A model generated the notes under the pieces. It searched no databases. It was given only the letters and a program-made list of their open reading frames with translations, and had not been told where the DNA came from. A stretch of 64,000 nt of DNA, taken from contig NZ_FZNN01000001.1 in NCBI RefSeq assembly GCF_900188035.1, positions 434,001-498,000 of the forward strand. The letters are read 5' to 3'. Positions 2,839 through 49,912 of the stretch are shown here, piece after piece (the first letter of the stretch is position 1; every line of letters begins with the position of its first letter). The DNA comes from Puniceibacterium sediminis. GTDB lineage: Bacteria > Pseudomonadota > Alphaproteobacteria > Rhodobacterales > Rhodobacteraceae. Both the position numbers and the translations under genes were made by a program.

Positions 2839-5244
2839 TTAGCTGTCGCGCAGGCTCTTGGCGTCCCAGATCTGGGCCATGTAGTCGGTGATCGTGCGGT
2901 CGGAGGAAAACCAGCCCGACCGCGCCGTGTTCAGCGCCGCCATGGTCATCCAGTGCTGCTGGTCCTTGAAGGCGGTGTCGACCTCACGCTGGGCGCGGTA
3001 ATAGTCGGTGAAGTCCGATGACACGAGGAAGTAGTCCGGCCCCGACAGGTTTTCCGTGATGTTGTGATAGCGCGCGGGTTCGTCCGGCGAGAAGACGCCA
3101 TCGTGGATCGCCTTGAGCGCTGCGGCAAGGCGCGGATCGGCGGCGATGGCCTGGGCTGCATGATCCTTGATCGCGCGGCGGGCCTCGACCTTGTCGGCGG
3201 TCATGCCGAACAGAAAGAAGTTTTCCGCCCCCACATGTTCGCGGATTTCCACGTTTGCGCCGTCCAGTGTGCCGACGGTCAGCGCGCCGTTCAGGGCGAA
3301 TTTCATGTTCCCGGTGCCGGATGCCTCTTTCCCGGCGGTCGATATCTGTTCAGAGAGGTCGGCGGCCGGGATCAGCCGTTCGGCCAGCGTCACGTTGTAG
3401 TTCGGCAGGAAGGCGACCTGCAGCATGTCGCGGGTTTCGACGTCGGCGTTCAGCACCTTGGCGACGTCGTTGATCAGGCGGATGATATCCTTGGCAAAGA
3501 AATACCCCGGTGCGGCCTTGCCGGCAAAGATCTTGAGCCGGGGCGTCCAGTCAGCCGATGGATTGGCCTTGATTTCCTGCCAGAGGGCAATCGCCTCAAG
3601 GATATTGAGGTGCTGGCGCTTGTATTCGTGCAGGCGCTTGATCTGAACGTCGAACATCATGTCGGGGTCGACATTAATGTCGGCGGTCGAAGACATCCAG
3701 TTGGCCAGATCAACCTTGTTGGCGCGCTTGGCCGCAGCATATTTTTCAAGCCAGGCGGGATCGGAAACATGCGGCTCCAATCCCTTGAGTTCTTCTAGGT
3801 GATCGGCCCAGGTTTCGCCGATCGTGTCGGTGATCAGGCCCGACAGGCGCGGGTTGCACGACAGCAGCCAGCGGCGCGGGGTCACGCCGTTTGTCTGGTT
3901 GATGATCCGGTCGGGATGCAAACGATGGAACTCCGAAAACACCGTGGTCTTCATCAGGTCCGTGTGCAGCGCCGAGACGCCGTTGACCTTGTGCGCCATG
4001 ATGAACGACAGCTCGCCCATCTTGACGTGATTGTCCGAGCGCGCAGAGACGGTGCGCGACGGGTGCGCCTTGGCATGGGCATCGTCGATCCGGTCGACAA
4101 TCTGGAGATGGCGCGGCAGTAGTTTTCCGAACAGCCCCTCGTGCCAGCTTTCCAGCGCCTCGGGCAGCAGGGTGTGGTTGGTATAGCTGAGGCAGGCCTG
4201 CGCCATATTCATGGCCTCGTCAAACGGCAGACCGCGTTCGTCGTGCAGGATGCGCACCAGTTCCGGCCCGGCGATGGCGGGGTGGGTATCGTTCATCTGA
4301 ATCGCGACCTTTGATGGCAGCTTGCCCAGATCGTCATGTTCGGAATCAAACCGGCGCATGATGTCCTGAAGTGCGGCGCCGGTCAGGAAATATTCCTGCT
4401 TGAGCCGCAACTCCTTGCCCTGATCGGTGGTGTCGTCGGGATAGAGCACGCGGGAAATCGTGCGGGCCAGCGCCTCGGGTTCAGCCGCGCCGGCGAAATC
4501 ACCCCGGTTGAAGCTGTCGAGGTCAAAGGGAGTATCCGATGCCCTGGCCGACCAGAGCCGCAGCGTGTTGGCCCAGCGGCCCTGCCAGCCGATGACGGGG
4601 GTGTCGTAGGCTTCGGCATCGACGCTGTCGGCGGGGGTCCAGACCACCTTGCCACCCTTGGTGGAGACCTCGCCGCCGAAACCGATGCGGTAGCGCGATT
4701 CAGGGCGTTCAAATTCCCAGGCGTGGCGTTTCAGCAGCCAGGTTTCGGGCGCTTCCATCTGGCGGCCATCGACAAAGGACTGGCGGAACAGGCCATGTTC
4801 ATAGCGGATGCCATAGCCATAGGCCGGGCAGCCAAGGGTCGACAGGGATTCAAGGAAACAGGCAGCCAGACGGCCAAGCCCGCCGTTGCCAAGCGCGGCA
4901 TCGGGTTCATCTTCGAGAACGGTGTCGAAATCCTGGCCCAGCGCGGCAAGCGCGTCACGCGCCTGATCGACAAGCCGCAGGTTCACGATGCCGTCTTCGA
5001 GAAGGCGACCGATCAGGAATTCCATCGACAGGTAATAGACCCGCTTTGCACCGGCCTCATACGTCTTGCGCGTGGCAGCAAACCAACTGTCGACGATCTG
5101 GTCCCGCACGGCAAAGGACAGGGCCATGCGCCAATCCTCGACGCTGGCGTGACTGGCGTCCTTGCCCAGTTCATATTTCAGGTGGCGCAGGATTGCGGCG
5201 CGAAATTCGTCGGTCGTCATGGTGTTGCGGCTGACCATATTCAT
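2839..5244 (-). CDS. glgP: Glycogen/starch/alpha-glucan phosphorylase
   Basis: Releases glucose-1-phosphate from glycogen by phosphorolysis with pyridoxal phosphate. 801 residues is typical. The PLP-lysine region EASGTGNMKFALNGALTVGT is near residue 646, and EDEPDAALGNGGLGRLAACF is the N-terminal family signature. It is the first gene of the leftward glycogen cluster (glgP, 201-base gap, glgB, glgC). Glucokinase upstream on the same strand is 151 bases away, so a separate promoter in 5245-5395 is likely. The start at 5244 agrees with the family N-terminus. Confidence 0.96.
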   Translation of the reverse strand: MNMVSRNTMTTDEFRAAILRHLKYELGKDASHASVEDWRMALSFAVRDQIVDSWFAATRKTYEAGAKRVYYLSMEFLIGRLLEDGIVNLRLVDQARDALAALGQDFDTVLEDEPDAALGNGGLGRLAACFLESLSTLGCPAYGYGIRYEHGLFRQSFVDGRQMEAPETWLLKRHAWEFERPESRYRIGFGGEVSTKGGKVVWTPADSVDAEAYDTPVIGWQGRWANTLRLWSARASDTPFDLDSFNRGDFAGAAEPEALARTISRVLYPDDTTDQGKELRLKQEYFLTGAALQDIMRRFDSEHDDLGKLPSKVAIQMNDTHPAIAGPELVRILHDERGLPFDEAMNMAQACLSYTNHTLLPEALESWHEGLFGKLLPRHLQIVDRIDDAHAKAHPSRTVSARSDNHVKMGELSFIMAHKVNGVSALHTDLMKTTVFSEFHRLHPDRIINQTNGVTPRRWLLSCNPRLSGLITDTIGETWADHLEELKGLEPHVSDPAWLEKYAAAKRANKVDLANWMSSTADINVDPDMMFDVQIKRLHEYKRQHLNILEAIALWQEIKANPSADWTPRLKIFAGKAAPGYFFAKDIIRLINDVAKVLNADVETRDMLQVAFLPNYNVTLAERLIPAADLSEQISTAGKEASGTGNMKFALNGALTVGTLDGANVEIREHVGAENFFLFGMTADKVEARRAIKDHAAQAIAADPRLAAALKAIHDGVFSPDEPARYHNITENLSGPDYFLVSSDFTDYYRAQREVDTAFKDQQHWMTMAALNTARSGWFSSDRTITDYMAQIWDAKSLRDS

Positions 5245-16766: not shown

Positions 16767-17102
16767 TCAGTCGTCCTTGCAGAAAAGTTCGTAGACGCAT
16801 TCCAGCATCTTGCGCGGGCGATCATCCGCAAGGCGGTAGTAGATCGCCTTGCCGTCGCGCCGCGGCACGACCAGCCCTTCGAGCCGAAGGCGCGACAACT
16901 GCTGCGACACGGCGGCCTGACGGGCGGACAGCAGGTCTTCAAGCTCGGTCACTGATTTTTCGCCGTTGACCAGGTGGCACAGGATCATCAACCGCCCCTC
17001 GTGGCTGATGGCCTTGAGAAAGCCGGCAGCGTGGGCGGCCTTATCGGCGATGCGGTCGAATTCTGCATCGGACATGTCATTGCTGAGGATGGGCAAGGTC
17101 AT
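16767..17102 (-). CDS. soxR: ArsR-family persulfide-sensing repressor (SoxR/BigR/SqrR type)
   Basis: 111-residue winged-helix ArsR protein; the recognition region is SARQAAVSQQLSRLRLEGLV. It has Cys42 (LCHLVNGE), Cys102 and Cys108 (ELFCKDD). Cys42 and Cys108 sit at the positions used by BigR, and match the SqrR pair 41/107, which form a sulfur bridge when sulfide or persulfide is present. It is expected to repress the sox promoters until sulfur compounds arrive. It is not the MerR-type superoxide SoxR of enterobacteria. Confidence 0.88.
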   Translation of the reverse strand: MTLPILSNDMSDAEFDRIADKAAHAAGFLKAISHEGRLMILCHLVNGEKSVTELEDLLSARQAAVSQQLSRLRLEGLVVPRRDGKAIYYRLADDRPRKMLECVYELFCKDD

Positions 17103-40582: not shown

Positions 40583-42277
40583 ATGGCCGATCTCAACAGG
40601 CGCATCGCGCAGGCGCGCGGCGATGAACCCGCCGATCTGATCCTGCGCGGCGGGCAGATATTTGACCTCATGACCGGCGAAATGCTGACTGGTGACGTTG
40701 CCATCTGCGGTGACACCATCGTTGGCATCTGTGACTCCTATGAGGGCGCAAATGTCATCGACGTCACCGGCCTTACGCTGGTGCCGGGGTTCATCGACAC
40801 CCATCTGCACATCGAATCCTCGCTTGTCACTCCGTTTGAATTCGACCGCTGTGTCGCCCCGCGCGGTGTCACCACCGCCATCTGCGATCCGCACGAGATT
40901 GCCAATGTCATTGGCGCCGACGGCATCCGCTATTTCCAATCCGCATCCGAACGCACCGTGATGGACGTCCTCGTCCAGCTTAGCTCCTGCGTGCCCTCGA
41001 CCCATATGGAAACCGCCGGCGCCGAACTGCTGGCGACCGACCTTGCCGAGCTGATGGGCCACCCATCGGCCATCGGCCTTGCGGAATTCATGAATTACCC
41101 CGGCGTGATTCACCGCGATCCGGCAGCCATGGAAAAGCTCGCCCTGTTTGAAGGCGGCCATATCGACGGTCACTGCCCGCTGCTGTCTGGCCGCGACCTG
41201 AATGCCTATATCGCCGCCGGCATCCGCACCGAACACGAAGCCACCAGCGCGCCCGAGGCACTGGAAAAGCTGCGCAAGGGCATGCGCGTCCTGATCCGCG
41301 AAGGGTCGGTGTCCAAAGATATGCACGCCCTGCAGCCGCTGCTGAATGAACGCACCTCGCCCTACATGTGCCTCTGCACCGACGACCGTAATCCGCTTGA
41401 TATCGCTGAACATGGCCACCTTGATTACATGATCCGCACCCTGATCGCGCTTGGCACGCCGCCGCTGGCCGCCTACCGCGCCGCGTCGCTTTCCGCGGCC
41501 GAGGCGTTCGGCCTCAAGGATCGCGGCATGATCGCCCCCGGAAAGCGCGCCGACATCGTTGCCATCGACTCGCTTTCGGGCTGCCACGCGCAGCTGGTTC
41601 TATGTGCGGGCAGGGTGGTCGATGACGCGACCTTTGCGGCGCGCGACATCATCCCCCCGGTTGGGCGCAATTCCGTCCGCGCCCCACGCGTCAGCCCGCA
41701 GGATTTCCGTTCCCGCGCCAACCGCACCGACACCGATGTGATCGGCATCCGCCCCGGCCAGATCCTGACCGATCACCTGCACGAAGATATTCCCGTGGCC
41801 GATGGCGACAAACTCCCCGATCCCGCCCGCGATCTTGCCCGGATCACCGTCATCGAACGGCACGGCAAGAACGGCAATATCGCCAACGGCTTTGTGCGCG
41901 GCTTTGGTCTGAAATCCGGTGCCATCGCCTCGACCGTCTGTCACGATCACCACAACATCGCCTGCGTCGGGATCGACTACGCCGACATGGCCCTTGCCGC
42001 CAACCGCCTGGCCGAGATTGAGGGCGGCTTTGTCGTCGCCTGTGATGGTGTGATCCTCGCCGAACTCTCCCTCCCGGTGGCCGGCCTCATGAGCCTTGAA
42101 CCGTTCGAGGTGGTGCGCGACGCCCTGACCGATCTGCGCGCCGCCGCCCGCGGCCTTGGCGTCACGCTGGAAGAGCCGTTCCTGCAACTCGCCTTCCTCG
42201 CCCTGCCGGTCATCCCGTCGCTCAAGATCACCGACCGGGGCATGGTCGATGTGATGAAGTTCGAAATCCTGCCCTGA
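40583..42277 (+). CDS. ade: Adenine deaminase
   Basis: 564 residues, amidohydrolase family; converts adenine to hypoxanthine. Metal-binding motif [16 protein letters not shown] near 73, [10 protein letters not shown] near 107, and C-terminal adenine-deaminase region [15 protein letters not shown]-like (here [18 protein letters not shown]) near 452. Preceded by a 13-base palindrome AATGTTAAACATT at 40496-40508 that could be an operator. Single gene. Confidence 0.93.
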
Positions 42278-42294
42278 CGTCGGCGCAGGGCGGG

Positions 42295-42345
42295 CCATAC
42301 GCCAGCCATACGCAAACCATACGGTTTCCATACGCTTGCCATACG
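42295..42345. repeat. Five CCATACG units at 11-base period
   Basis: CCATACG occurs at 42295, 42306, 42317, 42328 and 42339, each separated by four variable bases (CCAG, CAAA, GTTT, CTTG). The seven-base core plus four-base spacer is the geometry of tandem OmpR/PhoB-type half-sites, but the core is not the PhoB core. It lies 18 bases before the PhoB-like box upstream of gap-arsJ and just after the ade stop. A stem AAACCAT/ATGGTTT (from 42314 and 42345) followed by T could also act as a terminator. Confidence 0.9.
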
Positions 42346-42362
42346 ATGGTTTTTGACACCGG

Positions 42363-42380
42363 TTGTCATGAATCTGTCAC
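42363..42380 (+). promoter_or_regulatory. PhoB box upstream of gap-arsJ
   Basis: TTGTCATGAATCTGTCAC: two seven-base half-sites (TTGTCAT, CTGTCAC) separated by four bases. Compared with the enteric consensus CTGTCAT-N4-CTGTCAC it differs only at the first base of the cores. TATGCG (42391-42396), ten bases downstream, can serve as -10, the spacing of PhoB-dependent promoters. Confidence 0.7.
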
Positions 42381-42390
42381 ATGCTGCGCC

Positions 42391-42396
42391 TATGCG
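42391..42396 (+). promoter_or_regulatory. Candidate -10 element (TATGCG) of the gap-arsJ promoter
   Basis: Ten bases after the PhoB box, where the box replaces the -35. Predicted start near 42402, giving a leader of about 90 bases. Confidence 0.45.
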
Positions 42397-42490
42397 TGCC
42401 GCCTTGATCGGGCCCCATGTGCAGTGCGTCGAGGCTGCTCGCCCCGGGGGCTGTGATTTGGTGGATATCGAATAATTACAAGGGTTTGCA

Positions 42491-43489
42491 ATGACTACTT
42501 ACGCCATAAACGGGCTTGGCCGCATGGGCAAGCTGGCCCTGCGCCCCCTGCTGGAAAGCGGCGCAGAGATCGCTTTCATCAACGACGCGGTCGGCGACCC
42601 GATGATGCACGCCCACCTGCTGGAATTTGACACAGTCCACGGTCGCTGGGATGCTGAATTCTCATACGATTCCAATAACATAACCATAAACGGAACACGC
42701 ATTCCCTGCTACCAGTCACGCAACCTGAACGACCTGCCGCTGGCCGAAATAGACGTGATGATAGACTGCACCGGCCACTTCAAGACACCAGAACGCATCG
42801 CGCCATACTTTGCAGCAGGGGTGAAAAAGGTCGTCGTTTCCGCCCCGGTCAAAGACCCTTCAGTCGCCAACATCGTCTACGGCGTGAACCACAACACCTA
42901 CGACCCCACGCGCCACAACATCATCACCGCAGCAAGCTGCACCACGAATTGCCTCGCTCCCGTTGTTAAGGTGATACATGAGGGTATTGGCATAAAGCAC
43001 GGAATGATAACGACAATCCATAACGTGACAAACACGCAGACCATCGTTGATCGTCCAGCCAAGGACCTGCGCCGCGCCCGCTCAGCGCTCAACTCCATGA
43101 TCCCTACGACCACCGGCAGCGCCACCGCGATCACTCTGATCTATCCGGAACTGACAGGCAAGCTGAATGGTCACGCGGTGCGCGTCCCGTTGCTCAACGC
43201 CTCGCTCACCGACTGCGTGTTCGAAGTCGAACGTCCCACCACCGTCGATGAAGTGAACGCCCTTTTTTCCGCCGCCGCCGACGGGGAGCTAACTGGCATA
43301 TTAGGTTATGAGACCCGCCCACTCGTTTCCACCGACTACACCAATGATCCGCGGTCGAGCATCATCGACGCGCCGTCGACCATGGTCACCGACGGCACAC
43401 AGGTGAAGATCTACGCCTGGTATGACAACGAATGGGCCTATGCTCACCGCCTGATTGACGTCGCCCGGATGGTCGGAGCGTCGTTGTGA
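42491..43489 (+). CDS. gap: Glyceraldehyde-3-phosphate dehydrogenase of the arsenate detoxification pair
   Basis: 332 residues, complete GAPDH fold: [15 protein letters not shown] at the N-terminus and catalytic Cys150 in [11 protein letters not shown]. Coupled by a four-base GTGA overlap to arsJ. In such pairs GAPDH uses arsenate instead of phosphate to make 1-arseno-3-phosphoglycerate, which ArsJ exports. So this is probably not the main glycolytic copy. About nine Ile codons are ATA, unlike neighbouring genes, a sign of separate history. Confidence 0.85.
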
Positions 43490-44751
43490 GCCGACCCGAA
43501 GGCCTGTCCGCATACATCGCCGTTACGGCGGCTTACTGGGCCTTCATGCTGACCGATGGCGCGCTGCGGATGCTGGTGCTGCTGCACTTCCATTCCTTGG
43601 GGTTTTCGCCGGTTCAGCTGGCCTATCTCTTTGTTTTATATGAGATTGCAGGCATCGTGACCAACCTTTGTGCCGGATGGGTCGCGGCGCGGTTTGGCCT
43701 GACCTCGACGCTGTATGCCGGGCTCGCCCTGCAGGTCGCGGCGCTGCTCGCTCTGGCTCAGCTGGACCCGACATGGACCGTTCCAGCCTCGGTCGGTTTT
43801 GTCATGCTGGTCCAGGGCGCGTCCGGGGTGGCCAAGGATCTCGCGAAGATGAGCGCGAAATCGGCAGTCAAGTTGTTGGCCCCCAGCGGCGCGGGCGGGC
43901 TGTTCCGCTGGGTGGCTTTGCTGACGGGGTCCAAAAATGCGGTAAAGGGGGCGGGTTTCCTGCTGGGCGCGGCGCTTCTGGCGACGGTTGGGTTTGTCCC
44001 GGCGGTTTTGGGCATGGCGGCGGTTCTGTCGCTGATCCTTGGGGCGGTCATCGTCAAGATGCCGACAGGGTTACCAACAGGCCGCAAGGATGCGAAATTC
44101 AAGGAAATCTTTTCGGACAACGCCAATATCAACTGGCTCAGCCTTGCCCGGGTATTCCTGTTTGGGGCCCGCGATGTCTGGTTCGTAGTCGGCATTCCAA
44201 TCTATTTTTACGCGGTCCTTTCGGACGGCAGTGAGGATGGCAACCGCACGGCCTTTTTCATCATCGGCAGCTTCATGGCCGTCTGGACGGTGCTTTACGG
44301 ATTTGTTCAGGCCTCGGCGCCAAACCTGTTGCGTGCTAAAGACCGCCCCGAGTCCGAGATCGTTCACGTCGCCCGCCACTGGGCTGCTGGACTTGCGCTG
44401 ATCCCGGCGCTGCTGGCCGCGCTGGTCTGGTTTGGCGGGGCGCCGTCAACCGGGCTGACTGTTGCGTTGATCACCGGCCTTCTGGTGTTTGGGGCGGTCT
44501 TTGCGGTCAACTCGGCGCTGCATTCTTACCTGATCCTGGCTTTTTCGTCAGGCGACAGGGTTACGATGGATGTCGGGTTTTATTACATGGCAAATGCCGT
44601 CGGGCGTTTGCTTGGGACTGTGCTGTCGGGGCTGACCTACCAACTGGGCGGCCTGCCGCTCTGCCTGACGACGGCCGCGGTGATGGTCCTGCTCAGCTGG
44701 GTCGCTGCGGTTAGGTTGACGACGCCAGAGATTCAGACGGAAAAACCATGA
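43486..44751 (+). CDS. arsJ: Organoarsenical efflux MFS transporter ArsJ
   Basis: 421 residues, major facilitator type with about twelve helices. The N-terminus [20 protein letters not shown] and the region [20 protein letters not shown] are characteristic of ArsJ. It exports 1-arseno-3-phosphoglycerate, which breaks down outside to arsenate and phosphoglycerate. GTG start overlapping the gap stop. No arsR, arsC or arsB in the window, so control would come from the upstream PhoB box. Confidence 0.85.
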
Positions 44752-44886: not shown

Positions 44887-46149
44887 ATGACACGTCTCTT
44901 CCTTGCCAGCCTGGCCACCACCGCCTTGACGGCCTGCCCGGCCTTGGCCGTCGAAAAGTCCGAAGTGATAAGCACTTATGCCGACATTGCCGCCGCAAAA
45001 TACGCTGACAGCCTGACCACTGCGCAGGCGCTGGACGCTGCCATCGACGCACTGTTGGCCGACCCGTCTGAACAGACGCTGGCGGATGCCCGCACCGCCT
45101 GGATCGCCGCACGCGTGCCTTACATGCAGACCGAGGTTTACCGCTTTGGCAACGCGATCGTTGATGACTGGGAGGGCAAGGTGAATGCCTGGCCGCTGGA
45201 CGAGGGGCTGATCGACTATGTGGATGCGGCTTATGGCGGGGCGACAGATGAAAACGCCTATGCGGCGCTGAATGTCATAGCGAACCCGACCTTCACCCTG
45301 TCTGGCGAAACCGTCGATGCGACCGAGATTACCCCGGCCCTGCTGGAAGATACCCTGCAAGAGGCGGACGCGGTCGAGGCCAATGTGGCAACCGGCTATC
45401 ACGCCATCGAATTCCTGCTTTGGGGCCAGGACCTGAACGGTACCGATGCCGGGGCAGGGACGCGTTCCTGGACCGATTATGCATCCGGCGATGCCTGCAC
45501 CAACGGCAACTGCGACCGGCGCGGCGATTACCTGCGTGCGGCTTCGGATCTCATGCTCAGCGATCTTGAATGGATGGTCGCCCAATGGGCACCCGAAGGT
45601 GAGGCCCGCACGGCGCTGACCTCGGACGAAAACGCAGGGCTTCAGGCGATTCTGACCGGAATGGGGTCGCTGTCTTACGGCGAACTCGCTGGTCAGCGGA
45701 TGAAACTGGGCGTGCTGCTGAACGACCCCGAGGAAGAGCATGACTGTTTCTCGGACAACACCCAGTGGAGCCACTATTACGATGCTCTGGGTGTGCAGCA
45801 GGCCTATCTGGGCGAATACACCCGCATTGACGGCACCCATATCGAAGGCGCGTCCCTTTCTGATCTCGTGGGCGCGGTGAACGCGGCTGCGGACACGGAA
45901 CTGCGCGACAATCTTGACGCCACAATGGCCGAGATGCAGCAAATCGTTGACGCCGTGGATGGCGGCATGGCCTATGACACGATGCTGGCGCGCGGCAATG
46001 ACACCGGCGAAGAGCTCGTCATGTCGGCCGTGGATGCGCTTGTTGCGCAGACTCGTTCGATCGAACGAGTCGTGACCGCGCTGGATCTTGGCGGCATCAC
46101 GCTCGAAGGGTCAGACAGCCTCGACGATCCGAACGCGGTCTTCCAGTAA
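44887..46149 (+). CDS. Imelysin family protein (peptidase M75-like), iron-regulated type
   Basis: 420 residues from the ATG at 44887, with a signal peptide ending CPALAVEK; an upstream frame start at 44794 lacks support. The imelysin motif GxHxxE is seen as GYHAIEFLLWG with His172. Imelysins are periplasmic or surface proteins linked to iron uptake rather than proven peptidases. First of a four-gene module with DUF1111, a second imelysin-like gene and DUF1513. Confidence 0.9.
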   Translation: MTRLFLASLATTALTACPALAVEKSEVISTYADIAAAKYADSLTTAQALDAAIDALLADPSEQTLADARTAWIAARVPYMQTEVYRFGNAIVDDWEGKVNAWPLDEGLIDYVDAAYGGATDENAYAALNVIANPTFTLSGETVDATEITPALLEDTLQEADAVEANVATGYHAIEFLLWGQDLNGTDAGAGTRSWTDYASGDACTNGNCDRRGDYLRAASDLMLSDLEWMVAQWAPEGEARTALTSDENAGLQAILTGMGSLSYGELAGQRMKLGVLLNDPEEEHDCFSDNTQWSHYYDALGVQQAYLGEYTRIDGTHIEGASLSDLVGAVNAAADTELRDNLDATMAEMQQIVDAVDGGMAYDTMLARGNDTGEELVMSAVDALVAQTRSIERVVTALDLGGITLEGSDSLDDPNAVFQ

Positions 46150-46269
46150 ACCTATCAAGGTGCGGCGGCGCGTCCCGTTGAATTTGGGCGCCGCCGCATT
46201 CATGTTGCCAGAAAATCCTTGCCCTGTCCGGAGCCGATCCGGGTACGGCCCTCCCACGGACGTTTCGCA

Positions 46270-47844
46270 ATGAGCCCCCTCGCACGCCTGCAGCTGATGA
46301 TGATCGCGGCTTTGGTGGTCTGCGCCGGTTTCGCGCCTTCCGCGCGATCCGACATACCGAACGCGCTGTTCCAGCCGCATCTGGACGTGGTGCCCCGGAC
46401 CAAAGCCGAAACTGGCCGTATCCGGTCTGCGACCCGGGCCACCACCGATTTTACCACGCCCGAACCGTTCGAGGCGAATTCCGGCGGCGCGGCAACCGTA
46501 CGCGCGCGCGCGACGGCCGATGCCTTTTCCCAATCGTCGGGTAATATCCCCTTTGAACGCGAGCTGGATTTCAAGGTCGGCGACGGCTTGTTCCGCAAGC
46601 TCTGGGTGTCTTCTCCGTCCTCGACGCTGGTGTCGGACGGGTTGGGGCCGCTCTACAACGCACGGTCCTGTCAGTCCTGCCATCTCAAGGACGGGCGCGG
46701 TCACCCACCCGAGGGGCCACAGGACGATGCCGTGTCCATTTTCCTGCGCGTCTCTGTGCCTGCCGTGGATGATGCGCCGATGACCGATATAGAAGCCTTT
46801 CTTGCCGGAGTGGACGAGGCTGGCCCGCGCACCCGGCCCGATCCGGTCTACGGCGGGCAGATGCAGGATTTTGCCACGCAGGGCCACAAGGCTGAATACC
46901 GCTTTGACGTCCAATATACCGAGATGCCTGTCACGCTTTCGGGCGACGAAACCGTGACCCTGCGCGCGCCCACCTACGAAGCCGCCGACCTTGGCTATGG
47001 CCCATTGGCCCCCGGCGCGATGCTTTCGCCCCGCGTGGCACCGCAGATGATCGGGCTTGGCCTGATCGAGGCAATCCCAGCGCAGGACATCATGGCGCTT
47101 GCCGACCCGGAGGATGCCGACGGAAACGGCATTTCGGGGCGGGCGCAAAAGGTCTGGTCCTTCGAACACGGGCGCCCGATGCTGGGCCGTTTCGGGTACA
47201 AGGCTGGCGCGCCGTCGATCCGCGAACAGTCCGCTGCGGCCTTTGCGGGGGACATGGGGATTTCCTCGCCCATCTTTCCTGCGGGTTTTGGTGACTGCAC
47301 CGCGGCGCAGGCCGATTGCCGCACCGCGCCCGATGGCAGCACCGGCAGCCCCGAAGGCACCGAAATCGGGGCAGAGGGGCTGGACCTTGTTACCTTTTAC
47401 GCCCGCAACCTTGCTGTGCCCGCGCGGCGCGACGTGGATGACGCGCAGGTGCTGCAGGGCAAACAGGTGTTCTATGAAACCGGCTGCACCGCCTGTCACC
47501 AGCCGAAATTCGTGACTTCCCGGCTGGAAAATCAACCCGAGCAAAGCTTTCAACTGATCTGGCCCTATAGCGATCTGCTGCTGCATGACATGGGGCCGGG
47601 CCTTGCCGACAACCGTCCCGAGGGGCGCGCAACCGGCAGTGAATGGCGCACCGCGCCGCTTTGGGGCATTGGTATGACCGAAACTGTCAGCGGCCAGCAA
47701 AGCTATCTGCACGATGGTCGCGCTCGCACACTGCTCGAAGCGGTTCTGTGGCACGGGGGCGAGGCTGAGGCCCAGAAACAGGCGGTCATGGACATGCCCC
47801 CCGCCGACCGCACCGCCTTGATCAGATATCTGGAGAGCCTGTGA
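46270..47844 (+). CDS. Di-haem oxidoreductase (DUF1111, thiol oxidoreductase-like)
   Basis: 524 residues with a signal peptide (to about PSARSD). Two haem motifs, CQSCHLKDGRGHPP at 134 and CTACHQPKF at 406, in the DUF1111 / cytochrome-peroxidase-like fold. Beside imelysin genes this protein may change the redox state of iron in the periplasm. A TTG at 46219 would lengthen it, but the ATG at 46270 opens the signal peptide. Overlaps the next gene by four bases. Confidence 0.88.
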   Translation: MSPLARLQLMMIAALVVCAGFAPSARSDIPNALFQPHLDVVPRTKAETGRIRSATRATTDFTTPEPFEANSGGAATVRARATADAFSQSSGNIPFERELDFKVGDGLFRKLWVSSPSSTLVSDGLGPLYNARSCQSCHLKDGRGHPPEGPQDDAVSIFLRVSVPAVDDAPMTDIEAFLAGVDEAGPRTRPDPVYGGQMQDFATQGHKAEYRFDVQYTEMPVTLSGDETVTLRAPTYEAADLGYGPLAPGAMLSPRVAPQMIGLGLIEAIPAQDIMALADPEDADGNGISGRAQKVWSFEHGRPMLGRFGYKAGAPSIREQSAAAFAGDMGISSPIFPAGFGDCTAAQADCRTAPDGSTGSPEGTEIGAEGLDLVTFYARNLAVPARRDVDDAQVLQGKQVFYETGCTACHQPKFVTSRLENQPEQSFQLIWPYSDLLLHDMGPGLADNRPEGRATGSEWRTAPLWGIGMTETVSGQQSYLHDGRARTLLEAVLWHGGEAEAQKQAVMDMPPADRTALIRYLESL

Positions 47845-48830
47845 GACATTTCCCAAAGCTCATCGCCGCGCTGACGTTGCTGGCCAGCCCCGCCGCTGCC
47901 GATCTGGCCAGAGCGGTCGATGAACATATCCTGCCGGGCTACGCCGCTTTTGCCGAAACGACGGCGGCCCTGCACGATGCCGCCGTCGAAAGCTGCGCTC
48001 CCGACACGCTGCGCGCTGACTGGAACGCCGCCTTTGACGCCTGGATGCGCGTCAGCCACCTGCGCTTTGGCCCGGTGGAAGAGGCGGGCCGGTCTGTCAT
48101 CATCGCATTCTGGCCGGATGCAAAGGGCATGACACCCAAGGGGCTGTCCCGCCTGATCGCGGCAGAGGATCCGATCGTGAATTCCCCCGAAGGGTTCAAG
48201 GATGTCTCGGTCGCGGCGCGTGGGTTGTTTGCGCTGGAATATCTGCTGTACGATGCGCAGTACGATGCGACGGCCCCATATACCTGCGACCTGATCCGCG
48301 CCGTGACCGCCGATCTGGCGGATATCGCAGGGGCCGTGTCCCACGAATGGCAGAACGGTTATGCCGACACGCTGCGGACTGCAGGCGCGCCCGGCAACGG
48401 CACCTATCTGACTGAAAACGAAGGCCTTCAGGTGCTGTTTACCAACCTCGTCGCGGGGCTTGAATTCACCGCGAACGAACGTCTGGGACGCCCTCTTGGC
48501 ACGTTTGACCGCCCCCGTCCCAACCGGGCCGAAGCGCGCCGGTCTGAACGCTCGCTGCGCAACGTGGACTTGTCGATAAAGGCACTGAAGAATCTGACTG
48601 ATACGCTGGTTGACGCGCCGCTGCCCCAGTCCGACGCTGCCTTTGATCGGGCGATACAAACGGCGGCTGAGCTGGATGATCCGACCTTTGCCAGTGTCAG
48701 CGACCCGAGCGGGCGCCTCAAGGTCGAGATCCTGCAACAAAAGGTCAAGGCCGCCGAGGTTGGCGTTCTTGCCGAAGTCGGCCCGGCGCTTGGCGTGGCT
48801 CAGGGGTTCAATGCCGGGGACGGTGACTGA
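47841..48830 (+). CDS. Imelysin-like protein lacking the motif histidine
   Basis: 329 residues, GTG start overlapping the previous stop (GTGA). Signal peptide ending SPAAADLA. Imelysin-like helical bundle, but the GxHxxE motif reads GLFALEYLLYD, with Phe130 in place of His. So it may be a binding partner rather than a metal-coordinating protein. Two bases before the next gene. Confidence 0.82.
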   Translation: MRHFPKLIAALTLLASPAAADLARAVDEHILPGYAAFAETTAALHDAAVESCAPDTLRADWNAAFDAWMRVSHLRFGPVEEAGRSVIIAFWPDAKGMTPKGLSRLIAAEDPIVNSPEGFKDVSVAARGLFALEYLLYDAQYDATAPYTCDLIRAVTADLADIAGAVSHEWQNGYADTLRTAGAPGNGTYLTENEGLQVLFTNLVAGLEFTANERLGRPLGTFDRPRPNRAEARRSERSLRNVDLSIKALKNLTDTLVDAPLPQSDAAFDRAIQTAAELDDPTFASVSDPSGRLKVEILQQKVKAAEVGVLAEVGPALGVAQGFNAGDGD

Positions 48831-48832
48831 CA

Positions 48833-49912
48833 ATGACCACACGCCGCAGCTTTCTGACAACGCTTCTTGCGGCCTCGGCCATGCCGACGCTGAGCTGGGC
48901 CGATGCGGGCAATCCCCGCTATCTGGCCGCGGCGCGTGAACCGGATGGTGGATATGCTCTGTTCGGGCTGAATGCCTTGGGTCAGGATACCTTTCGTGTC
49001 CCGCTGCCCGCGCGCGGCCACGCAGCCGCCGGGCATCCGCATAAACCGCTGGCCGTGGCCTTTGCACGCCGTCCCGGCACCTATGCGCTGGTCATCGACT
49101 GCGCCGATGGTCACGTCTTGCACCAACTGACCCTGCCAGAGCGGCGGCGTTTCAACGGCCACGGCGCGTTTTCGGCCGGTGGGGATGTTCTCTATACCTC
49201 CGAAATCGACGCGGCTTCGGGGCAGGGCGTGATCGGGGTCTGGGATGCGATGAGCGGCTATCGCCGGACGGGCGAATGGTCGTCACAGGGCATCGGCCCG
49301 CATGAAATTGCGCGCCTGCCCGGATCGGGTGATCTGGTTGTGGCCAATGGCGGCATCCGCACCGCGATGGACGATGAGCGCAGCAAGCTGAACCTTGACA
49401 CGATGGCGCCGAACCTCAGCTATTTCAGTGCCGATGGGGAACTTCTGGACCAGATCAGCTTGCCTCCCGAGTTGCACCAGAATTCAATCCGTCACCTCGC
49501 CCTGCGGTCGGATGGATTAGTGTCTTTTGCCATGCAGACCGAAGATCCCGATGGGTGGTTTACCCCGCTTCTGGGGCTGCACCGGCGTGGCGCACCGCTC
49601 GTTCTGGCGGCAGCAACCGAGCCACAACAGATGCGGATGAAGGGTTATGCCGGCAGTATCGCGTTCAGTGGCAATGGCGCACAGGTTGCGCTGACCTCGC
49701 CTCATGGGGGCGTGCTGAGCCTGTTCGACGCTGCTGGTCAGTTCCAAGGGATGATGGCCCGCACGGATGTTTCTGGTGTCGGCCCGGCCGAAGGTGGCTT
49801 CATGACAACGGACGGGTTGGGCGGACTTTGCAGCATTGCGGGGGATGCCCTGTCGCCTCTCAATTCCGCTCCGCGCGCCTGGGACAACCATCTGGTGACG
49901 CTGCCGGTCTAG
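48833..49912 (+). CDS. DUF1513 beta-propeller protein, Tat-exported
   Basis: 359 residues. Tat signal MTTRRSFLTTLLAAS. DUF1513 domain with repeating blade-like strands; GIGPHEIARLPGSGDLVVAN and QNSIRHLALRSDGLVSFAMQ are typical. Last gene of the imelysin module. No proven activity; known from context to accompany iron-uptake genes. Confidence 0.86.
   Translation: MTTRRSFLTTLLAASAMPTLSWADAGNPRYLAAAREPDGGYALFGLNALGQDTFRVPLPARGHAAAGHPHKPLAVAFARRPGTYALVIDCADGHVLHQLTLPERRRFNGHGAFSAGGDVLYTSEIDAASGQGVIGVWDAMSGYRRTGEWSSQGIGPHEIARLPGSGDLVVANGGIRTAMDDERSKLNLDTMAPNLSYFSADGELLDQISLPPELHQNSIRHLALRSDGLVSFAMQTEDPDGWFTPLLGLHRRGAPLVLAAATEPQQMRMKGYAGSIAFSGNGAQVALTSPHGGVLSLFDAAGQFQGMMARTDVSGVGPAEGGFMTTDGLGGLCSIAGDALSPLNSAPRAWDNHLVTLPV

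Follow-up and report, generated by a model that had tools for sequence, protein, structure and literature searches.

How is an arsenate-export gene pair turned on when no arsenic sensor is encoded beside it? This question is raised by a 64,000-nucleotide stretch of the genome of Puniceibacterium sediminis, a relative of the marine roseobacters (contig NZ_FZNN01000001.1, positions 434,001 to 498,000; hereafter the window), in which the genes gap and arsJ follow a putative binding site for the phosphate-starvation regulator PhoB. The gap gene (42491..43489, + strand) encodes an ArsJ-associated glyceraldehyde-3-phosphate dehydrogenase (GAPDH) of 332 amino acids with matches to NF033735, PF00044 and PF02800, the first at 552.5 bits in a profile search against a curated cut-off of 450. 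The arsJ gene (43486..44751, + strand) encodes an organoarsenical efflux transporter of the major facilitator superfamily (421 amino acids; NF033734, PF07690) that scores 540.6 bits for NF033734 against a curated cut-off of 400, and its GTG start at 43486 overlaps the gap stop by four bases. With both cut-offs passed and the genes adjacent, the two form a predicted GAPDH/ArsJ arsenate efflux pair. No arsR gene was found in the locus: PF01022 gives no ArsR-family gene within about 25 kb, and none was read among the neighbouring frames. An earlier note on this DNA had stated that no arsR is present, which holds for the locus but not for the genome, where an arsR-arsC-acr3 operon lies on contig C65. 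The pair is very probably a member of the PhoB regulon, activated directly under phosphate limitation.

The predicted PhoB site, or Pho box, TTGTCATGAATCTGTCAC (42363..42380, + strand), consists of two 7-base half-sites, 42363-42369 and 42374-42380, separated by a 4-base spacer, and would take the place of a -35 hexamer. A candidate -10 element read from the sequence, TATGCG (42391..42396, + strand), lies ten bases past the box, and no hexamer pair of the sigma-70 type was found in 42200-42550. The 7-4-7 half-sites, the TATGCG and the overlap of the GAPDH gene with arsJ had been described in the earlier note, and their positions were confirmed. The degenerate box has a single match in the window, with zero mismatches; when one mismatch is allowed, 0.42 window matches are expected and at least one appeared in 34 of 100 shuffles. 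Because one-mismatch matches are so common in shuffles and the exact core TGTCAN6TGTCA has 15 matches in the 4.64-Mb genome (versus 5 when the pattern is reversed), the motif taken by itself is weak evidence and proves little. The significance of the putative box comes from its position and from comparison with relatives.

In fact, the genome encodes the regulator that such a site would need. One protein on contig C40 exceeds the PhoB cut-off (352.3 bits against 296.2, the next best protein reaching 176.2), PstA lies above its cut-off near phoB in the profile search, and reading of the open reading frames (ORFs) gave the order pstS, pstC, pstA, pstB, phoU, phoB, with a PhoR-like kinase frame also read. 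A scoring matrix was derived from the 300 bases before pstS at 30 loci from 30 genomes of the family (Rhodobacteraceae), the window genome included. A consensus score of 16 was attained by 28 of the 30 upstreams, the typical site being CTGTCATAAAACTGTTAC followed by a third half-site, and these 28 boxes, the genome's own pstS box among them, made up a half-site matrix that excludes the spacer. On this matrix the window box scores 21.0 bits, the 28 matrix sites range from 12.2 to 23.2 bits, and the pstS of the window genome has two overlapping boxes, of 18.0 and 17.3 bits. When the 200 bases ahead of gap were shuffled 400 times, 21.0 bits was never attained. The earlier note had proposed comparing the site with pst sites and had named a lack of PhoB or a low score as fatal to its idea; PhoB is present, and the window box outscores the box of the genome's own pstS. 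The presence of PhoB and the pst genes, a pstS-like box in sense orientation at promoter distance and the recurrence of the box in relatives together place gap-arsJ in the predicted PhoB regulon.

This recurrence was examined in 190 gap-arsJ loci, 80 from named genomes (one of them, L062, labelled Rhizobiaceae) and 110 from further family genomes. A match above the gap cut-off occurs in 247 of 394 family genomes, and the 110 loci were drawn from the best 150 of these, as 30 plus 80 of the other 120, one of the 120 being the window's own. After removal of 12 loci as duplicates over their last 150 bases, 178 remained. By tblastn of up to 2 kb upstream, 157 of them carry same-strand arsR and arsC, one carries arsC without arsR and 20 carry neither. 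One of the latter, L065, was dropped since its gap is cut at a contig edge, leaving 177 usable loci, of which 158 are preceded by arsC and 19 lack arsR and arsC, or 20 with the window added. Judged from these gene orders, arsR-arsC-gap-arsJ is the usual design and the window shows a rarer, regulator-less one. A box of at least 10 bits occurs in the 200 bases before gap in 15 of the 20 loci lacking arsR and arsC, the window included, versus 2 of the 158 loci preceded by arsC (Fisher p ~8e-16, kinship ignored). These two (L072 and L077) have the box about 95 bases before gap, where we take it to sit in arsC coding sequence. Shuffles predict a box in 0.33 of the 20 loci, the opposite strand gives 0 of 20, and spacers of other lengths (0-3 and 5-11 bases) give 0-2 loci each versus 15 for the 4-base spacer. 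With 500 column-permuted matrices, 0.58 of the 20 loci have a box on average and 12 at most. An AAAA spacer, which lies outside the matrix, is found in 9/28 pstS boxes, 9/20 best gap sites and 29/43 arsR-promoter boxes of at least 3 bits. The comparison thus came out as the phosphate-limitation idea of the earlier note predicts and argues in its favour. Among the 29 best-scoring loci of other families, two have a box of at least 10 bits (L355, 14.5; L361, 10.7) within 250 bases upstream of gap, promoters farther upstream not being scanned, and nothing general follows for those families.

Several points weigh against control by PhoB or limit the comparison. The matrix sites were chosen by likeness to an E. 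coli-type consensus, and TATGCG is weak as a -10 element, sharing 3 of the 6 letters of TATAAT. At least one of the 15 genomic copies of the exact core stands within a same-strand reading frame (L011). The sample consists of best-scoring gap matches, in which kinship was partly controlled, and the ORF calls made in scripts are rough. The 158 loci preceded by arsC are a poor promoter control, as the bases before gap are largely arsC coding sequence; a fairer control, 617 stretches of 200 bases upstream of other roughly called ORFs, has 26 that attain 10 bits, a rate far below 15 of 20 that nevertheless exceeds the shuffle prediction. Five of the 20 loci lacking arsR and arsC fall below 10 bits: L041, L081, L214 and L231 are boxless, and L088 reaches 9.3. 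The congener (G067, locus L154) has the usual arsR-arsC design, and the box ahead of its arsR is weak (8.4 bits, at -41).

The rival that survives best, itself improbable, is that ArsR from the C65 operon controls gap-arsJ in trans, so that the pair would be induced by arsenic and the Pho box would be incidental or secondary. Contig C65 (L299), near its end, carries arsR, arsC, acr3, a second type of arsC, arsH and a heavy-metal ATPase-like frame, the names being given by reading except for profile or protein matches for ArsR-ArsC and Acr3. The arsR-arsC operons of the relatives have a conserved dyad over the arsR start codon, AATATTTC-N8-TTCATGAAATATGGAA, which we take to be the ArsR operator, and a self-built model from arsR upstreams gives these operons a median of 43.8 bits and a 5th percentile of 27.9. 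By this model the C65 arsR has an operator-like site of 29.2 bits, and the standalone loci L156 and L217 of relatives keep strong ones before gap (30.7 and 31.6 bits), L185 more weakly (18.8 bits), which would suit control from a distance. In the 250 bases before the window gap, however, no operator was found, the best scores being -4.9 bits sense and -8.0 antisense, and an ArsR-type promoter was rejected there on this ground. The objection of a distant ArsR, foreseen in the earlier note, is answered in this way as far as sequence reaches. The nearest PF01022 match within the window (about 16869-17000, - strand) lies between frames read as YeeE/YedE-like and CcdA-like, and is perhaps of a sulfur-sensing type rather than an arsenic sensor. 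Elsewhere in the family, one frame of L069 of Roseovarius sp. 217 (3164-4003) encodes both ArsR and ArsC, which would make the sensor and the arsenate reductase a single protein; gap, arsJ and an Acr3-like frame come next (names by reading). An unbroken ArsR-ArsC match recurs in G370, G203, G067 and G296, but a stop interrupts it in G000 and G149.

Less probable still is that the box arose by chance, with gap-arsJ expressed constitutively or under another regulator. The 15 genomic matches of the exact core (5 for its reverse), which show that it is not rare, the five loci without a 10-bit box and the failure to find a standard promoter leave some room for this, but score, orientation, spacing and place concur, and boxes are far commoner before gap in loci lacking arsR and arsC than before other ORFs. 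Finally, since phosphate is a substrate of GAPDH and metabolism is reshaped in phosphate starvation, PhoB might activate the pair as a second GAPDH for carbon metabolism, arsenic export being secondary, which is very unlikely for an enzyme above the cut-off of the arsenic-specific NF033735 whose frame overlaps arsJ.

Direct activation by PhoB, which fits best, would proceed as follows. When phosphate is scarce, PhoR would phosphorylate PhoB, which would bind the box at 42363-42380 and recruit RNA polymerase to a promoter in which no -35 can be recognised. The products of gap and arsJ would then be made alongside the high-affinity Pst uptake system, independently of arsenic, and therefore the cell would anticipate arsenate from its own transport state. 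Phosphate transporters admit arsenate. Arsenate entering via Pst would be joined by GAPDH to glyceraldehyde-3-phosphate to give 1-arseno-3-phosphoglycerate, which ArsJ would export, the chemistry being predicted by analogy with published ArsJ systems.

Does the same input act on the arsR promoters of relatives? At -56 to -50 before the start, about -53, a Pho box of at least 10 bits occurs in 29 of 156 arsR promoters, versus 0-3 of the 156 when this interval is shifted to four other places; the other 127 fall below 10 bits there. A -35-type word TTGnn is present in 6 of the 43 arsR promoters with a box of at least 3 bits versus 70 of the 113 without, so in these promoters the Pho box seems to replace the -35. 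The 29 promoters with a Pho box beside the putative ArsR operator are predicted to be under dual control. L069 is one of the loci predicted to respond to two signals. The claim that phosphate limitation acts instead of arsenic fits the window promoter, but the 29 arsR promoters of relatives seem to combine both signals.

Recurrence was also judged on a maximum-likelihood tree built from 116 gap proteins. The state without arsR and arsC requires 16 changes on this tree, at least 7 of them forced by well-supported branches; the standalone design with a box requires 11, at least 6 on well-supported branches, and Pho-box wiring of any kind requires 20, at least 10 of them on such branches. Each of these changes may be a gain or a loss, many forks of the tree are open, and exchange of gap between genomes may have occurred. 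In 13 searched genomes with a locus without arsR and arsC (the window's and 12 of the others), a near-full-length ArsR-ArsC match is found in 5 and Acr3 above its cut-off in 4; the match adjoins a second gap in G370, and contig C65 of the window genome carries both. In the Thalassococcus halodurans record (G161), Acr3 was not found and the ArsR- and ArsC-like matches are partial, so gap-arsJ may be the main arsenate route there. On balance, the arsenate-export pair of the family has probably moved repeatedly between arsenic and phosphate sensing as a recurrent feed-forward defence, via three promoter designs: an ordinary -35 with an ArsR operator (arsenic as sole signal), a Pho box in place of the -35 with an ArsR operator over the start (both signals), and a Pho box without arsR, as in the window (phosphate as sole signal).

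The surroundings of the pair were also read. Its 5' leader (42397..42490, + strand) has neither an ArsR operator nor an unusually stable fold; a structured leader was rejected, as the fold of 42380-42495 is not more stable than shuffles (z = 1.14). An ATG-started frame of 27 codons (42392-42475), spotted by eye in the leader with its ATG within TATGCG, is probably due to chance. Upstream lies ade, for adenine deaminase (40583..42277, + strand; TIGR01178, 572.9 bits, cut-off 472.5), and a relative of ade likewise precedes gap in L032 of T. halodurans. Between ade and the Pho box are five CCATACG heptads with an 11-base period (42295..42345, + strand), which neighbour the predicted PhoB promoter without being part of it: the array shares the 7+4 geometry, but such arrays stand at no fewer than 38 places in the genome and the triple pattern is absent from the congener. 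A hairpin terminator at the array found no support either, since the fold of 42285-42365 has z = 0.02 and there is no terminator-like match. Genome-wide, arrays such as L313-L332 repeat the CCATACG heptad 3-6 times with a period of exactly 11 bases, the 4-base spacers between heptads vary, and cag often stands in front. The three-heptad pattern with up to 2 mismatches has 164 overlapping matches in the window genome versus 0 for its reverse, and is found in 12 of 149 genomes, the window's included (the reversed pattern in 2 others), while the congener has no match; the heptads differ among genomes (CCATATG, CCAGACG, CCATACC, ACATACG). For 23 arrays read, the nearest upstream rough ORF is on the same strand in 16, on the opposite strand in 5 and absent in 2, and this mostly same-strand placement hints at an RNA-level 3'-end element. 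Downstream of arsJ (44887-49912) come genes for an imelysin and a di-haem oxidoreductase, followed by two frames (47841 and 48833) without an NCBIfam match in the profile search, and the region is possibly an iron-uptake cluster.

ArsJ was reportedly first described in Pseudomonas aeruginosa. GAPDH/ArsJ arsenate efflux and arsenate resistance are described for the var operon of Vibrio cholerae in the passages available of PMC9601151, and family matches give the window pair the same kinds of enzyme and transporter and the same expected chemistry. Set against such systems, the window locus lacks a local arsR and has a Pho box. A link between PhoB and arsenic genes is known from Halomonas sp. HAL1, in which, according to the parts of PMC4563254 consulted, PhoB controls the arsenite oxidase genes aioBA via a Pho box in low phosphate. 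The likeness lies in a Pho box before arsenic genes, binding at the window box being predicted; the system differs in that it serves arsenite oxidation, not arsenate export, and that aioBA is also arsenite-induced (PMC4563254). In Agrobacterium tumefaciens 5A the PhoB, Pst and ArsR networks interlock, with ArsR1 as a repressor of pstS1 and phoB1 and with aio genes among the targets of PhoB, as excerpts of PMC3834237 and PMC7965956 report. The terms arsJ and glyceraldehyde have 0 occurrences in these two papers. The only literature found that joins ArsJ to PhoB or to phosphate limitation is PMC9846622, whose available passages describe a cluster arsR-sphX-gap-arsJ in Nodularia spumigena. Under phosphate limitation its ArsJ-associated GAPDH rose by log2 1.57 and 2.41 and arsJ by 0.29 and 1.20, and most arsenate-related genes were without pronounced change. 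That cluster, unlike the window locus, includes arsR and a phosphate-binding protein. The passages available of a Prochlorococcus phosphorus paper (PMC5111396) hold nothing on gap-arsJ, and no report of PhoB control of, or a Pho box on, gap-arsJ was found in the literature searched, in which coverage of subscription journals is thin. Links between PhoB and arsenic (aioBA) and the rise of ArsJ-associated GAPDH in a cyanobacterium are thus already known; the proposed Pho-box wiring of gap-arsJ and the probable repeated switching of its input appear to be new.

Arsenate is a danger mainly under phosphate scarcity, since cells then open high-affinity uptake, and a trigger by phosphate hunger would put the defence ahead of arsenate build-up. 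If this is confirmed, marine transcripts of such arsenic genes would report phosphate limitation, not arsenic, which would change how those data are read. The repeated switching would offer a natural series for change of promoter input, including the predicted two-input gate. In conclusion, if the proposed wiring is true, a nutrient-uptake programme of these bacteria would also deploy the antidote to the toxic mimic of that nutrient.
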